Origin: Psychroserpens luteolus
GTDB taxonomy: Bacteria; Bacteroidota; Bacteroidia; Flavobacteriales; Flavobacteriaceae
Length of the DNA: 64,000 bases
Assembly (NCBI RefSeq): GCF_021032705.1
Contig: NZ_JAHVXI010000001.1
Coordinates: 744,001 to 808,000, forward strand
Direction of reading: 5' to 3'
Positions 38,099 through 63,858 of the stretch are shown piece by piece. Both the position numbers and the translations under genes were made by a program. Under the pieces are notes generated by a model, which searched no databases, was not told the origin of the DNA, and saw only the letters and a list, made by a program, of their open reading frames with translations. Each line of letters opens with the position of its first letter. The first letter of the stretch is position 1.

Positions 38099-38114
38099 TG
38101 TTCCACGTGAAACA
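38099..38114. other. parS: parS centromere site (ParB-binding), exact consensus
   Basis: TGTTCCACGTGAAACA is identical to the Bacillus subtilis parS 16-mer as I recall it and has only one mismatched base pair from a perfect palindrome. It lies in the 57-base gap between the methyltransferase start (38077) and the mnmG stop (38135). ParB (Spo0J) loads here and spreads for origin segregation. Confidence 0.92.
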
Positions 38115-38134
38115 TATCATATGAAATTGTGTTT

Positions 38135-40006
38135 TTATCGGCCCAAATATACTAACAACACCGAAACATCTGCAGGAGAAACTCCACTTATTCGCGATGC
38201 CTGAGAAATCGTAACTGGTTGAATTTTTGTTAATTTCTGAATAGCTTCAGTGCTCATAGATTTCAATTTTGTATAGTCAAAATTTGTCGGGATTTTCACG
38301 TCTTCTAACCTATTAAGTTTATCTGCGTTGTTCTTTTCCTTTTCTATATATCCAGAATATTTGATTTGTATTTCAGTTTGTTCGATGACTTCTCTGTCGA
38401 GATTATGTTCTTGAATATAATTCTCAACAGCCTCAAAACGACGCATGTCTTCAGTAGTTATATTAGGTCTAGAAAACAATTTAAACATCTTATCAGATTG
38501 CTTCACCAACGATGAGTTTTTTGCTTCTAAGACTGGATTTGCTTCCTCTGGTTTAACACTCGTTTGTCTAAAGAAGTTGACAAAATTATCAGATTGTGTT
38601 TGTTTTTCTTCCATTCGCCTCAATCGGTTCTCACTCGCTAAACCAAGTTTATACCCTTTTGGCGTTAGTCTAAAATCAGCATTATCCTGTCGTAATAACG
38701 TTCTGTATTCTGCTCTAGAAGTAAACATTCGATAAGGCTCTTCAGTTCCTTTAGTGATTAAATCATCAACCAAAACACCTATATAGGCTTCGTTCCTTTT
38801 TAATATAAATTCATCCTTTTCCTGAACTTTCAACGCAGCATTAATTCCCGCCATCAATCCTTGAGAAGCTGCTTCTTCATATCCAGTTGTTCCGTTAATT
38901 TGACCAGCAAAAAATAACCCGTCAACTAATTTAGTTTCTAAAGTGTGTTTCAATTGTGTCGGCGGAAAATAATCATATTCGATAGCGTAACCTGGTCTAA
39001 AGAATTTCACATTTTCAAAACCTACAACAGATTTTAATGCTTTAAACTGAACGTCTTCTGGAAGTGACGTAGAAAACCCATTCACATAAACCTCGACGGT
39101 ATTCCAACCCTCGGGCTCCACAAATAATTGATGTCTATCCTTATCAGCGAAACGATTAATCTTGTCTTCAATTGACGGACAATATCGCGGCCCAGTACTT
39201 TGAATTCTTCCATTAAACATTGGCGAACGATCAAACCCCTCACGAAGTAAATCATGAACTTCAGGACTCGTATAAGTCATATGACACGAACGTTGTTCGG
39301 TTAATGGTTTTATATGTTCTAAATACGAAAATTTTTCAGGTTGATCATCTCCAGGTTGCTCTATCATTTTAGAATAATCTAAAGAACGACCATCTACTCG
39401 AGGAGGTGTGCCTGTTTTCATTCTGCCAGAATCAAATCCGAGATTAATGAGCTGTTCCGTAATTCCGGTTGCTGCTCTTTCTCCTGCCCTTCCTCCTCCA
39501 AAATTTTTATCACCTATATGAATCAAGCCATTTAAGAAAGTACCATTAGTAAGCACAACAGTTTTTGCTTTAATTTCTAAACCAAGCGATGTTTTTACTC
39601 CAACAACTTTGTGGTTTTCTACAATTAAACCTGACACCATTTCCTGATAAAAATCCAAGTTTTGAGTCTGCTCCAAAAGTAGTCGCCAGTCTTCAGCAAA
39701 ACGCATTCTATCACTTTGTACTCTCGGACTCCACATAGCTGGTCCTTTAGATTTATTAAGCATTTTAAATTGAATAGCAGAGGTGTCACTTACAATTCCA
39801 CTATAACCACCAAGCGCATCTATCTCTCTAACAATTTGTCCTTTAGCAATTCCACCCATAGCTGGGTTACATGACATTTGCGCAATGTTTTGCAAATTCA
39901 TTGTAATAAGTAAGGTTTTGCTTCCCATATTGGCAGCAGCGGCAGCAGCTTCACTTCCCGCATGTCCTGCACCAACAACTATGACATCATATACTTCGTT
40001 GAACAT
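38135..40006 (-). CDS. mnmG: tRNA uridine-5-carboxymethylaminomethyl modification enzyme, FAD subunit
   Basis: About 623 residues from the ATG at 40006 (MFNEVYDVIVVGAGHAG). A longer frame opens at 40060, but that ATG falls inside a -7 promoter box (40058-40065), so it is not the start. The N-terminus has the FAD-binding GAGHAGSEAA; SCNPAMGGIAKG and TGTTGYEEAASQGLMAG are diagnostic of MnmG (GidA). With MnmE it installs cmnm5 at U34 of several tRNAs. GidA genes commonly lie near replication origins, and here the gene is bracketed by two parS sites. Confidence 0.97.
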   Translation of the reverse strand: MFNEVYDVIVVGAGHAGSEAAAAAANMGSKTLLITMNLQNIAQMSCNPAMGGIAKGQIVREIDALGGYSGIVSDTSAIQFKMLNKSKGPAMWSPRVQSDRMRFAEDWRLLLEQTQNLDFYQEMVSGLIVENHKVVGVKTSLGLEIKAKTVVLTNGTFLNGLIHIGDKNFGGGRAGERAATGITEQLINLGFDSGRMKTGTPPRVDGRSLDYSKMIEQPGDDQPEKFSYLEHIKPLTEQRSCHMTYTSPEVHDLLREGFDRSPMFNGRIQSTGPRYCPSIEDKINRFADKDRHQLFVEPEGWNTVEVYVNGFSTSLPEDVQFKALKSVVGFENVKFFRPGYAIEYDYFPPTQLKHTLETKLVDGLFFAGQINGTTGYEEAASQGLMAGINAALKVQEKDEFILKRNEAYIGVLVDDLITKGTEEPYRMFTSRAEYRTLLRQDNADFRLTPKGYKLGLASENRLRRMEEKQTQSDNFVNFFRQTSVKPEEANPVLEAKNSSLVKQSDKMFKLFSRPNITTEDMRRFEAVENYIQEHNLDREVIEQTEIQIKYSGYIEKEKNNADKLNRLEDVKIPTNFDYTKLKSMSTEAIQKLTKIQPVTISQASRISGVSPADVSVLLVYLGR

Positions 40007-40018
40007 AATCCTTTGTAT

Positions 40019-40034
40019 TGTTCCACGTGGAACA
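40019..40034. other. parS: Second parS site, perfect 16-base palindrome
   Basis: TGTTCCACGTGGAACA is fully palindromic and fits the parS consensus TGTTnCACGTGnAACA. It sits between the predicted mnmG transcription start and its ATG, so it would be part of the mnmG 5' leader, where ParB binding could also affect transcription. Confidence 0.9.
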
Positions 40035-57062: not shown

Positions 57063-59249
57063 TTACGCATCTTCATGCTTTCCTATGAGTGTAAAATCTA
57101 AATGTTTTTTAACAAGATCGGTGTTTTTTACTTTTACAACAACCTCATCACCTAGCTGATACATGAGTTTAGCATTTTTACCAATTAAGGCATAATGATC
57201 TTCATCAAAAACATACTGATCATCTTTCATATCACGAATACTCACCATGCCTTCGCATTTATTTGATATGATTTCAACATAAATTCCCCAATCGGTTACT
57301 CCAGAAATAACACCTACAAATTCTTCATCTTTATGATCTTCCATAAAACGAATTTGCATGTATTTGATAGAATCTCGTTCGGCTTTAGTTGCTAAATTTT
57401 CCATATTACTCGAATGGTTGCATTTATCTTCATAAGCCTCTTCATTAACCGATTTTCCACCATCGAGATAATGTTGTAATAAGCGATGTGCCATCACATC
57501 AGGATAACGTCTAATTGGTGATGTAAAGTGACTGTAGTAATCAAATGCTAATCCGTAATGACCAATATTATGTGTGGTATATTCGGCTTTACTCATCGAA
57601 CGAATCGTTAATGTATCAACAAGGTTTTGTTCCTTTTTACCATTAACATCTTTTAATAAATTATTTAAAGAATTAGAAATACTTTTTCTGTCCTTAAAAT
57701 TGAGTTTATATCCAAAGCGTCCCACAACATTTTGTAAGGCAGCTAATTTACTATCATCTGGTTCGTCATGTACTCGGTAGACAAAGGTTTTCTTTTGTTT
57801 ACCAATAAATTCGGCCACTTTTTTATTAGCCAATAGCATAAACTCCTCAATAAGTTTATTAGCATCTTTACTAGTTTTAAAGTACACACCTACAGGATTT
57901 GCTTCTTGATCTAAATTAAATTTTACTTCAACTTTATCAAAAGAAATAGCACCAGTACTCATACGTTTACGACGCATGATTTTTGCTAATTCATCTAGTT
58001 TTAAAACAGCATTTGCAATAGATTGATCTGCTTGATACGCCTTTCCTGTTAAAGACACGTCTTTAGGAATAGCATTGGTTTTAGTTTCTATAATAGATTG
58101 CGCTTCTTCATAAGCAAAACGTGCATCAGAATACGTGACTGTTCTACCAAACCATTGGTCTTTAATTTCAGCTTTATCATTCATTTGAAACACTGCAGAA
58201 AAGGTATATTTTTCTTCATGAGGTCGTAATGAACACGCACCATTAGACAAAATTTCAGGTAACATTGGCACAACACGATCAACCAAGTATACTGAGGTGG
58301 CACGCTCATAAGCTTCATCGTCTAACACAGTACCTTCTTGTAAATAATGCGATACATCGGCAATATGAATTCCTATTTCATATAAGCCATTATCTAAGAT
58401 TTTAAAAGATAAAGCATCATCAAAATCTTTAGCATCTTTTGGATCTATGGTAAATGTTAAATCTTGTCGCATATCACGACGCTTGGCTATCTCTTCTTTA
58501 GTAATAGAAGTATCTAATTGGTTCGCATAATCTTCTACATCATGAGGAAATTCGTAAGGCAATCCATACTCAGCTAGAATAGAGTGAATCTCGGTACTAT
58601 GTTCTCCAGGTTTACCCAGAACTTTAAGTACTCTTCCATAAGGAGAATCGGCTTTTTCTGGCCAATCTTCTAAGGAAACTAGTACCTTATCACCTTCTTC
58701 GGCTTTGTTGATTTTATTGATAGGTACAAAAATATCGGTATGCATTTTATTACCATCAGTAATCACAAAAGCATAGTTTTTATGAATTTGAATTACACCA
58801 ACATATTCGCTTTTAGCGCGTTTAATAATACCAGTAATCTCACCTTCTATTCTACCGCGTTTTCTTCTTTTATAGGCATAAAATTCAACCTCATCACCAT
58901 CTAAAGCTTTGTTCATATTATTAGACGCTATATAGATATCTTCATCAAAATCGTCGCTAATGATATATCCAGAACCTCTGGACGCCATATCAACAATACC
59001 GATATGATATTCGGTATTAATAATCGCTTTAAACTTACCGCGATCTATTTGTTCTATTTCCTGTTTCGCAGCGAGTTTGGCTAAAGTCTTTATAATTTGA
59101 TTTCTACTACTGGCGTCATTAACACCAAGCTTAGCAGCAATTTGTTTATAGTTAAAGGATTGGTTTCTGTCTTTTTTTAAAATACTAAGAATTGTATTTG
59201 TAAGGTTTGAAATCCCTTTTTTGGATTTCCTTTTTTTCTTTTTTGTCAT
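57063..59249 (-). CDS. rnr: Ribonuclease R
   Basis: A 728-residue RNase II/R-family exoribonuclease. Order: helix-turn-helix-like N-terminus (about 15-75), cold-shock OB domains (about 80-240), the RNB catalytic domain beginning DPKDAKDFDDAL at 269-280 with its Asp cluster, and a C-terminal S1 domain (about 645-720, GVISGVTDWGIYVEI). It degrades structured RNA 3'-5' and acts in trans-translation and cold response. The 715-base region upstream is a candidate replication origin. Confidence 0.96.
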   Translation of the reverse strand: MTKKKKRKSKKGISNLTNTILSILKKDRNQSFNYKQIAAKLGVNDASSRNQIIKTLAKLAAKQEIEQIDRGKFKAIINTEYHIGIVDMASRGSGYIISDDFDEDIYIASNNMNKALDGDEVEFYAYKRRKRGRIEGEITGIIKRAKSEYVGVIQIHKNYAFVITDGNKMHTDIFVPINKINKAEEGDKVLVSLEDWPEKADSPYGRVLKVLGKPGEHSTEIHSILAEYGLPYEFPHDVEDYANQLDTSITKEEIAKRRDMRQDLTFTIDPKDAKDFDDALSFKILDNGLYEIGIHIADVSHYLQEGTVLDDEAYERATSVYLVDRVVPMLPEILSNGACSLRPHEEKYTFSAVFQMNDKAEIKDQWFGRTVTYSDARFAYEEAQSIIETKTNAIPKDVSLTGKAYQADQSIANAVLKLDELAKIMRRKRMSTGAISFDKVEVKFNLDQEANPVGVYFKTSKDANKLIEEFMLLANKKVAEFIGKQKKTFVYRVHDEPDDSKLAALQNVVGRFGYKLNFKDRKSISNSLNNLLKDVNGKKEQNLVDTLTIRSMSKAEYTTHNIGHYGLAFDYYSHFTSPIRRYPDVMAHRLLQHYLDGGKSVNEEAYEDKCNHSSNMENLATKAERDSIKYMQIRFMEDHKDEEFVGVISGVTDWGIYVEIISNKCEGMVSIRDMKDDQYVFDEDHYALIGKNAKLMYQLGDEVVVKVKNTDLVKKHLDFTLIGKHEDA

Positions 59250-59964
59250 TATAATTTGTAATCATTTTCATTTCCTAAAAGTGTTAGGAATTCAGTCTTT
59301 AAAAAACTTAATATAAGGAGGAGTGAAGATATTAAGTTTCTGCAAATCTACGGTTTAATTATTTAATCGTGTTTAGTTAAGGTTAAATTAATGAAAAAGA
59401 CTTGTTATCAACACATATATTCATATTATCTTTTTTCTTTTAAAATTTCAAAAATAAAATGATGGTTATTATTGCTTGTTAATAGTGAGTATAACTTTTT
59501 AAACTTTTGTTTTGATTAGTGACTTATATAATTCAATTAATAAGTAATGAACATTAAATTGAGATATAAACCACTCATTTTAAAGATAAATAGTAATACT
59601 ATTAACAGCTGTTGATAATTGATGTTGACAACTAAAATTTAATAAGTATTTATAAAATTTGTGTTGGTATCTTAAGATTTGAATGCTGATAACTTCACCA
59701 AAAAAAACCTGTAACTTTTTTGGTTATCATAACTCTGTTTTGGTTTGAAAAAATTATCAGATAATCCTAATAAAAGTTTTAAATACTTAACAGAAGATAT
59801 TAACAAGTAATGCTATAAAAATAGCTTAGAAGTTAACAACGTCTATTATCATATAAAATCAGATCTTATTCAAACTTAATTATTATGAATAACTATGTGT
59901 TTTATCCTTCGGTTTATTTATAAGCAATTATTAACTTTAAGGTTTTAAACAACACCCTAAAATT
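59250..59964. other. oriC: AT-rich gene-free region, candidate oriC
   Basis: The largest gene-free stretch of the window, between divergent rnr and rpiB, and markedly AT-rich. It holds TTATCAACA at 59405-59413, the same motif inverted at 59610-59618, a related TGTTGACAA at 59623-59631, and four TTAACA motifs (around 59602, 59787, 59800 and 59833). TTATCAACA differs by one base from the DnaA box TTATCCACA. An inverted GTTATCATAAC lies near 59723. rnpA, mnmG and two parS sites are within 21 kb. No exact DnaA box was seen, so this is only a candidate; it also carries the rnr and rpiB promoters. Confidence 0.45.
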
Positions 59965-60399
59965 ATGACCATTTCAATAGGTAACGATCACGCAGGAACC
60001 CAATATAAACAGGCTATTGTAGAACATCTGGAGGCTAAAGGTTTTACAGTTAATAACTATGGAACAAATGCTAATGACAGTGTTGATTATCCAGATTATG
60101 TACATCCAGTAGCAAATGATGTAGCTGATAACAAAGTGAATTTCGGAATCTTGATCTGCGGAAGTGCTAATGGTGTAGCGATGACCGCTAACAAGCATCA
60201 AAAAGTTAGAGCAGGAATTTGTTGGACCAAAGAAATCACCGAATTAACCAGACAACATAATAATGCTAATATTTGTTGCATTCCAGCTCGCTTTACAGCC
60301 TTACAGCAAGCAATTCAAATTGTAGATACGTTTTTAAATACCGAATTTGAAGGTGGTCGCCATCAAAAACGAGTAGATAAAATTCCTGTGTCTTGTTAA
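59965..60399 (+). CDS. rpiB: Ribose-5-phosphate isomerase B
   Basis: A 144-residue RpiB/LacAB-family sugar isomerase. SIGNDHAGTQYKQ at the start and ILICGSANGVAMTANKH near residue 66 (catalytic Cys and anion-binding loop) identify it. It interconverts ribose-5-phosphate and ribulose-5-phosphate in the pentose phosphate pathway. It is divergent from rnr and 9 bases before a GNAT gene on the same strand. Confidence 0.95.
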   Translation: MTISIGNDHAGTQYKQAIVEHLEAKGFTVNNYGTNANDSVDYPDYVHPVANDVADNKVNFGILICGSANGVAMTANKHQKVRAGICWTKEITELTRQHNNANICCIPARFTALQQAIQIVDTFLNTEFEGGRHQKRVDKIPVSC

Positions 60400-63477: not shown

Positions 63478-63858
63478 TTATTGTTGGGACACCTTTTTAG
63501 AAAAAGCATCTAAAAGTTCTTTCATTTTTGTTTCTATGGAATCAAAATCCGTTCCATCCTTACCAATGTACAAAATCATTAACGCATAAGACGATAAAAT
63601 GTTGTTAAAATACTCAGCTTTATTAAGGCGATAGGCTTCTCTAAGTAAGCGTTTGATACGATTTCTGTCTACAGCATTTTTAAAATGACGCTTACTTACA
63701 GAAACACCAGTTTTAAATTGAATAGCCTCCTCGTCAAATGTTGTTTCTAGATATACCAAACGCAACGGATAGGTAGAGATTGATTTTCCTTCAGAAAACA
63801 ACTGCTCTATCAGTTTTTTACTTTTAAGCTTTTCTTTTTTTGGATAAGAAAATGACAT
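63478..63858 (-). CDS. rnpA: Ribonuclease P protein component
   Basis: A 126-residue basic protein with the RNR box KNAVDRNRIKRLLREAYR near residues 60-77, the diagnostic motif of RnpA, and KSKKLIEQLFSEGKS near the N-terminus. It assists the RNase P RNA in 5' processing of tRNAs. In many bacteria rnpA lies by rpmH close to oriC; rpmH is not visible here. It abuts the S41 peptidase gene directly downstream, and an unknown small ORF ends just before it. Confidence 0.94.
   Translation of the reverse strand: MSFSYPKKEKLKSKKLIEQLFSEGKSISTYPLRLVYLETTFDEEAIQFKTGVSVSKRHFKNAVDRNRIKRLLREAYRLNKAEYFNNILSSYALMILYIGKDGTDFDSIETKMKELLDAFSKKVSQQ

Follow-up and report, generated by a model that had tools for sequence, protein, structure and literature searches.

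A conserved element between rnr and rpiB as the predicted chromosomal replication origin of Psychroserpens luteolus and other Flavobacteriaceae

The rnr-rpiB gap and its conserved element

The DNA analyzed here, called the window below, is a stretch of 64,000 nucleotides from the marine bacterium Psychroserpens luteolus (G000:C11:744001-808000; source assembly of 56 contigs and 3.84 Mb). Its largest ORF-free gap, 715 bp long compared with 502 bp for the runner-up, separates the divergent genes rnr, encoding RNase R, and rpiB (Table 1). An ORF scan of this gap found no internal ORF of at least 30 aa, and a coding region was rejected on that ground. As judged by nearest-neighbor energy, the lowest duplex stability in the window at the 200-bp scale is at 59405-59604, inside the gap, and the least stable 400-bp stretch also lies there, so that the easily melted AT-rich segment looked for in an oriC is present at both of these scales; at scales of 40 to 100 bp, the least stable stretch of the window is not inside the gap. 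The original prediction had singled out this interval as gene-free and had listed motifs and a neighboring gene, all of which proved to be there: TTATCAACA occurs in both orientations (S1 and S5 in Table 1), TGTTGACAA lies at 59623-59631, TTAACA-type repeats were found in the gap, and rnpA (63478-63858), placed about 4 kb away, lies to the right at a distance of 3.5 kb.

Table 1. Features of the rnr-rpiB region and the parS sites, in window coordinates (percentages and fractions refer to the 80 aligned rows described in the text)
Feature	Position	Strand	Basis or conservation
parS site TGTTCCACGTGAAACA, first of two flanking mnmG	38099..38114	.	16-base pattern
parS site TGTTCCACGTGGAACA, second of two flanking mnmG	40019..40034	.	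16-base pattern
rnr (RNase R), left neighbor of gap	57063..59249	-	TIGR02063
Intergenic region rnr/rpiB, holding the proposed oriC	59250..59964	.	Largest ORF-free gap in window
Conserved element of ~410 bp, proposed oriC module	59403..59812	+ (orientation as rpiB)	Profile and model R1
DnaA box S1, TTATCAACA, left edge of element	59405..59413	+	At most 1 mismatch to TTATCMACA in 79/80 rows; 69% exact
Trinucleotide run beside S2, candidate DnaA-trio/unwinding element	59449..59472	-	ATA ATA ACC ATC ATT TTA TTT TTG
DnaA-box-like S2, CTATTAACA	59477..59485	-	TATN[AC]ACA in 96%; exact TTATCAACA in 2 rows
NTN run of nine units, after S5 with 1-nt spacer, possible DnaA-trios in this species	59582..59608	-	
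DnaA-box-like S4, CTATTAACA	59599..59607	+	TATN[AC]ACA in 91%
DnaA box S5, TTATCAACA	59610..59618	-	At most 1 mismatch in 53%, exact in 11%
DnaA-box-like S6, TTGTCAACA	59623..59631	-	At most 1 mismatch in 23%
Weak site S7, ATACCAACA	59662..59670	-	ATACCAACA in 20/80 rows
Weak site S8, TTATCAGCA	59684..59692	-	At most 1 mismatch in 16%
DnaA-box-like S9, ATATTAACA, right edge of element	59797..59805	+	TATN[AC]ACA in 95%
rpiB, right neighbor of gap	59965..60399	+	TIGR01120

In all, 562 RpiB relatives were confirmed, the nearest named ones being from Psychroserpens, and the best 80 of them were taken for a comparison of loci. The rnr gene lies upstream of rpiB in the same arrangement in 77 of these loci (all but L062, L082, and L097). 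A profile of the element was built on window positions 59401-59815 from 30 sequences, 29 of them within the 80 loci, and it matched 77 of the 80, mostly across 397 to 413 bp, a count that includes the 29 loci on which the profile was trained. The loci without a match were L103 and two in which rpiB starts 165 (L062) or 86 (L082) bases from a contig end; the two sets of 77 loci thus differ in membership. Among the matched loci are 28 with long gaps, of which 24 keep the element by rpiB and four (L048, L049, L065, and L088) keep it by rnr, showing that the element stays intact despite genes inserted beside it. When 140 sampled 20-kb stretches from five genomes were searched with the profile, no match was found outside the rnr-rpiB site (L155, L176, and L235). 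These three sequences, of which L155 is the window, were aligned with 77 loci to give 80 rows.

Sites resembling DnaA boxes hold fixed positions in the element, with TTATCMACA at its left edge followed by NTATNAACA sites, the last of which forms its right edge. Across the 80 rows, the best-conserved part is the block from S1 to S2. A cluster of DnaA boxes, as looked for in an oriC, is therefore found, consisting of S1 (79 of 80 rows) and four further sites that fit TATN[AC]ACA in 58 to 96% of rows, the lowest value being that of S5 (58%). In their commonest form, S2 and S4 are CTATTAACA and S9 is TTATTAACA, one or two bases off a TTATCAACA box. Two of the three Flavobacterium rows (L104 and L099, but not L101) carry an exact TTATCAACA box at S2, which suggests that S2, S4, and S9 are DnaA sites in a weaker form.

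Counts of boxes in single sequences are suggestive only and were rejected as proof; the comparative evidence is decisive. In the window as a whole, TTATCAACA with at most one mismatch was seen 50 times against 39 expected, a number reached by eight of 100 shuffles and hence not significant, and TTATCCACA with at most one mismatch was seen 20 times against 20.7 expected. The window holds only two exact boxes. When 700-bp windows across 400 kb were scored by exact TTATCMACA, one other window equaled the gap, and in the relatives G016 and G008 the gap was not a top window. A looser box set, composed after the sites of the gap were known, makes the gap the top window in all three genomes. Words were also counted in 48 of the 77 loci, those with gaps shorter than 1,300 bp, and the expected counts were derived by resampling these gaps under a second-order Markov model. 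DnaA-box-like words were among the most enriched: CTATTAACA occurred in 40 of the 48 gaps (1.6 expected), TATCAACA in 34 (3.6 expected), and TTATCCACA in 20 (0.5 expected), the counts being taken over related and hence not independent loci. Other enriched words were CAAAGCTAC and AGTTATACC, in 22 gaps each.

Origin unwinding systems of the BUS type, described for Bacillus subtilis and other bacteria, consist of DnaA boxes, a spacer, and DnaA-trios (PMC8287927), and the criterion applied here was at least three conserved DnaA-trios no more than 16 bp from a DnaA box. As far as the available text of that paper allows a comparison, the gap resembles BUS-type origins in having DnaA boxes beside AT-rich DNA and trinucleotide runs near S2 and S5, but it differs from them in that the run is interrupted at the conserved S2 and is not conserved at S5. 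In the S2 run, the middle T of the first six units is present in fractions of 1.00, 1.00, 0.28, 0.66, 0.88, and 0.71 of the rows. The nine-unit run at S5 was reached by two of 200 first-order resamples, and it is broken in the close relatives L176 and L235. The mean longest trio run over the 80 rows was 5.1, compared with 2.9 in resampled sequences, with the S5 run unconserved and the S2 run interrupted.

GC skew, parS sites, and the placement of the origin

On the contig that carries the window, the cumulative G-C skew over 400 kb reaches its minimum at C11:808365, 4.4 kb right of the rpiB start and after three minus-strand genes. The value there is -4845, compared with -4778 at 804001, a difference of 67 units in a valley of about 4,800. 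In contiguous 400-kb stretches of two relatives, the distance between the rpiB start and the minimum was 0.9 kb in the complete genome G016, where the minimum falls on the rnr-side edge of the gap, and 11.1 kb, on the rpiB side, in G008. The gap therefore lies at the turn of the skew, with offsets of 0.9 to 11 kb in the three stretches. The original prediction had counted a minimum to the right of 64 kb against itself; formally, the minimum on this contig does fall 365 bases beyond the end of the window, whereas the minima of G016 and of the 67-locus mean described below are at the gap and the element. Fits to sampled skew (twenty 20-kb stretches per genome in four complete genomes) bracketed rpiB in G008 (2.87-3.05 Mb; rpiB at 2.94 Mb) and G006 (3.62-3.83 Mb; rpiB at 3.80 Mb). 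They missed it by about 50 kb in G007 (2.02-2.21 Mb; rpiB at 1.97 Mb) and by more than 110 kb in G016 (0.33-0.47 Mb; rpiB at 0.58 Mb), where the contiguous stretch corrects the fit.

Skew was also averaged over 67 of the 77 loci, those with 8 kb on both sides, centered on the element. The mean cumulative skew is lowest at the element (-269), with a second, almost equal dip (-266) some 6 kb farther right. Of the 67 loci, 66 have negative skew over the left 8 kb and 49 have positive skew over the right 8 kb, and the right exceeds the left in 64. Within this 8-kb frame, the minima of single loci fall within 0.5 kb of the element in 27 cases and at least 4.5 kb to its right in 37. Given the second dip and the scatter of these minima, skew alone places the origin only to several kilobases. 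The direction of transcription, also invoked in the original prediction, gave a divided answer: leftward genes do prevail on the left, where, within 200 kb, the minus strand carries 115 of the 154 ORFs that are 150 aa or longer, but the right side is even (70 plus, 71 minus), so that the strand argument holds by half in this genome.

The two sites fitting the 16-base parS pattern (Table 1) are the only matches in the genome and lie 19 to 21 kb from the gap, in agreement with the distance of about 20 kb originally given. Nine congeneric genomes each had exactly two parS sites and no match to a control pattern, and the distance from parS to rpiB was 17 to 27 kb in all nine. Among complete or near-complete genomes of the family, parS was found in 14 of 15, and in the 13 further family genomes in which it could be measured, parS was 5 to 55 kb from the element and always on the rnr side; the distance in G047 was left out since its parS lies across the record start. 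G089 and G254 were without parS. In G045, rpiB is 37 kb from the element, yet parS is 5 kb from it. Proximity to parS, a usual though not defining property of an oriC, is thus seen here. Searches of 105 loci did not find parS, a result that is uninformative for or against because these loci span at most 10 kb per side. As a separate observation, the two parS sites bracket mnmG (window 38099-40034), each within 100 bp of the gene, and coordinates show mnmG bracketed by parS in G006, G007, G008, and G016 as well.

These data bear on three other placements of the origin. An origin next to dnaA is the common textbook arrangement, and adjacency to dnaA, although not defining, would have favored such a placement. 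Here, dnaA is on a different contig from the rnr-rpiB gap, the 3.5-kb dnaA locus of this genome contains no box of the patterns tried, and in all four complete relatives dnaA is 1.07 to 1.42 Mb from rpiB and far from the skew minimum, so that the skew turn beside dnaA named in the original prediction as contrary evidence was looked for and not found. In the available text of the Mariniflexile genome paper, dnaA is likewise out of line with the skew (PMC11278836), and we regard an origin beside dnaA as next to impossible. A start a few kilobases to the right of the gap, near prc and rnpA, would coincide with the bottom of the skew on this contig at C11:808365; the G008 minimum lies 11 kb to the same side, as do the 37 single-locus minima mentioned above, and a 348-bp gap does exist at C11:808669-809016. 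However, a shift to that side would be expected from the conserved minus-strand genes located there, and the three box sets (exact, loose, and TATT[AC]ACA) found nothing in the 348-bp gap, whereas all seven of their sites within 803250-809700 fall inside the rnr-rpiB gap. Moreover, over 71 loci the median length of the largest ORF-free gap located 0.8 to 8 kb rightward is 210 bp, and only 13 loci reach 400 bp there. A right-hand start is very improbable.

Origin-prediction programs customarily use mnmG (gidA), which here lies about 20 kb to the left of the gap, as an indicator gene, and such indicator genes vary with lineage. An origin beside mnmG and the parS pair would agree with the Ori-Finder assignments published for two other flavobacteria, Mariniflexile and Algorimicrobium, and with the position of the gene between both parS sites. 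Nevertheless, the ORF-free gaps flanking mnmG are shorter than 100 bp here, the skew on this contig is still falling from mnmG toward rpiB (-4375 at 784001 to -4778 at 804001), and the profile detects the conserved element upstream of rpiB in Mariniflexile sp. AS56 (L057) too. We therefore consider an mnmG origin highly unlikely. Since mnmG is 17 to 24 kb from rpiB in five genomes of the genus and sits between the parS sites, the published mnmG label may be a near miss, which may cast doubt on such assignments.

Range of the element and its independence from rpiB

A sequence-only model (R1) of 258 positions was derived from 16 hand-chosen family loci, the window included, and the search with it scored 20 first-look candidates per genome. 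R1 matched 89 of 100 family genomes in one place each, and 77 of the 81 of good quality; as the window and other family loci had trained the model, some of the 89 matches are possibly training sequences. Four family genomes had an extra weak match overlapping the first on the other strand. The model was unmatched in 11 of the 100 genomes, four of them among the 81. The element thus occurs once per chromosome and is conserved in relatives, as looked for in an oriC.

Of the 89 element-bearing genomes, 80 were examined for the position of rpiB, and the nine omitted ones were strong matches. An rpiB gene was present in 79 of the 80: in 76 it shares contig and strand with the element, and in three it is on another contig. 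In 72 of the 76 it lies 180 to 516 bp downstream of the element, and in the others at 2.2, 2.6, 17.9, and 37 kb. The remaining genome, G101, has the element (C1:2291653-2291883) and parS 35 kb from it but no RpiB match, and it serves as a natural test of independence from rpiB. Because rpiB can be distant, on another contig, or unmatched, the element is not tied to rpiB. In three genomes the RpiB match, which lies away from the element, contains one internal stop (TAA in G045 and G100, TAG in G038), possibly reflecting decay or assembly error.

The persistence of the element bears on whether it is instead a regulatory region shared by rnr and rpiB, with divergent promoters or leaders of the two genes, whose proximity to the origin would be a coincidence. 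Its position between divergent genes is in keeping with this, and it must contain or adjoin their promoters. Against this, some 410 bp at nearly fixed length is long for promoters, the element is unbroken where longer insertions part it from rnr or rpiB, and it is kept where rpiB is 18 or 37 kb off and in G101; a promoter or leader of rpiB would stay attached to that gene, and in several genomes the element does not. In addition, its conserved words include DnaA-box-like ones, and it yielded neither an RNA consensus structure nor an Rfam match. A purely regulatory role is accordingly a poor explanation, to which we give very little weight. The 258-bp part, tested in 16 sequences, gave no consensus structure: the consensus energy was -0.26 kcal/mol, and of the nine pairs three had changes on both sides. 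At gathering scores, the sole Rfam match in the whole window was a tRNA, with none in the element. A structured noncoding RNA or riboswitch was rejected for lack of conserved structure or an Rfam match.

In a class-wide draw of 149 genomes, 26 genomes outside the family had a weak R1 match, one each, with E-values of 1.5e-9 to 7e-4; about 0.15 matches would be expected at an E-value of 0.001 in approximately 145 genomes, the E-values being rough. R1 was unmatched in 119 of the approximately 145 genomes outside the family, and for 99 genomes with no match the outside-family status was read from row order. parS was found in 17 of the 26 genomes with a match. The two lie on one contig in 13, 1.2 to 85 kb apart and with parS on the opposite side in five of these, and on different contigs of draft assemblies in the other four. 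The nearness of weak matches to parS outside the family supports, without proving, a predicted class-wide origin module.

The proposed origin and its relation to earlier predictions

The turn of the skew to within about 11 kb, the conservation of the sites and of a single place per genome, the low duplex stability, and the proximity of parS are established by computation. In line with the original prediction of a candidate chromosomal origin, the skew, the nearby parS sites, and the conservation of the boxes in a single place indicate that the rnr-rpiB gap very probably contains oriC. We infer DnaA binding, opening at S1-S2, helicase loading, and bidirectional firing, as follows. DnaA, which is encoded on another contig, would bind ordered sites in 59403-59812, namely, S1 as the strong outer box, S4-S6 as a central cluster, and S2 and S9 as conserved NTATNAACA sites. 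The DnaA oligomer would open weak AT-rich DNA between the sites, most likely in the S1-S2 block (59405-59485), where opening is placed because this block is the best conserved and 59405-59604 is the least stable 200 bp. After opening, helicase would load on both strands, and one fork would run left through rnr toward parS and the other right through rpiB. More speculatively, Bacteroidia may possess an ancestral dnaA-independent oriC module made up of an edge consensus box and a fixed array of nonconsensus NTATNAACA sites. In this tentative proposal, which we think somewhat less probable than its negation, the NTATNAACA sites would form a second class of initiator site with lower affinity, and their near-constant spacing across the family would organize opening instead of the usual box cluster and trios.

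Tenacibaculum belongs to the same family as the genome studied here. Of its seven circular chromosomes, six have an oriC that Ori-Finder places directly next to rpiB, and in the seventh the predicted oriC is near that gene (PMC9864904); since this prediction is already published, the location of the origin is not new. That prediction shares the neighboring gene and the family with the gap described here, but it was a location for orienting chromosomes, and the available text gives no conserved element, site order, or range. By contrast, Ori-Finder assigned oriC to mnmG in Mariniflexile litorale and Algorimicrobium (PMC11278836, PMC12843772), members of the same family in which oriC is likewise away from dnaA and is said to fit the GC skew, whereas the window has its proposed origin in the rnr-rpiB gap; in the available text of the Mariniflexile paper, the main text and a figure legend swap oriC and ter (PMC11278836). 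For Elizabethkingia meningoseptica, a 649-bp oriC with three boxes is predicted at 740,720-741,368, with dnaA at 2.61 Mb (PMC8994065); it too is a predicted boxed region away from dnaA, whose neighboring genes are not named in the available text. Blattabacterium is described as having neither dnaA nor recognizable boxes (PMC2768785). The available text of three further papers (PMC5219744, PMC4759079, and PMC6323995) contains nothing on this point. The open-licence literature searched, as far as its text was available, yielded no earlier description of the conserved element, and no experimental mapping of a flavobacterial origin was found in the literature searched. What is new here is the defined, ordered module, its occurrence in one place per genome, its range, and the doubt about "mnmG" assignments.

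Computed origin placements in Flavobacteriaceae disagree, at least in the accessible parts of these reports, some being at rpiB and others at mnmG, while dnaA is used as the record start. A sequence model that matches in one place would let anyone orient chromosomes in most of the sampled family genomes and would allow growth rates to be derived from metagenome coverage, and the defined fragment of about 410 bp is usable for DnaA binding and minichromosome tests.

Two minor observations concern DNA near the element and near dnaA. In three of the 28 long-gap loci, examined for flanking ORFs, the ORFs beside the element (L028, 7912-9396; L035, 8136-9314; L048, 8575-9888) encode different secreted-looking proteins whose C-terminal tails look by eye like sorting domains of type IX secretion, as though such cargo genes inserted preferentially in the flank of the origin. 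About 19 kb from dnaA in G016, the sampled stretch L143 (G016:C1:2635001-2655000) has a G+C content of 0.254, compared with 0.32 to 0.36 in the 19 other sampled stretches, and is possibly a mobile or surface-polysaccharide island.
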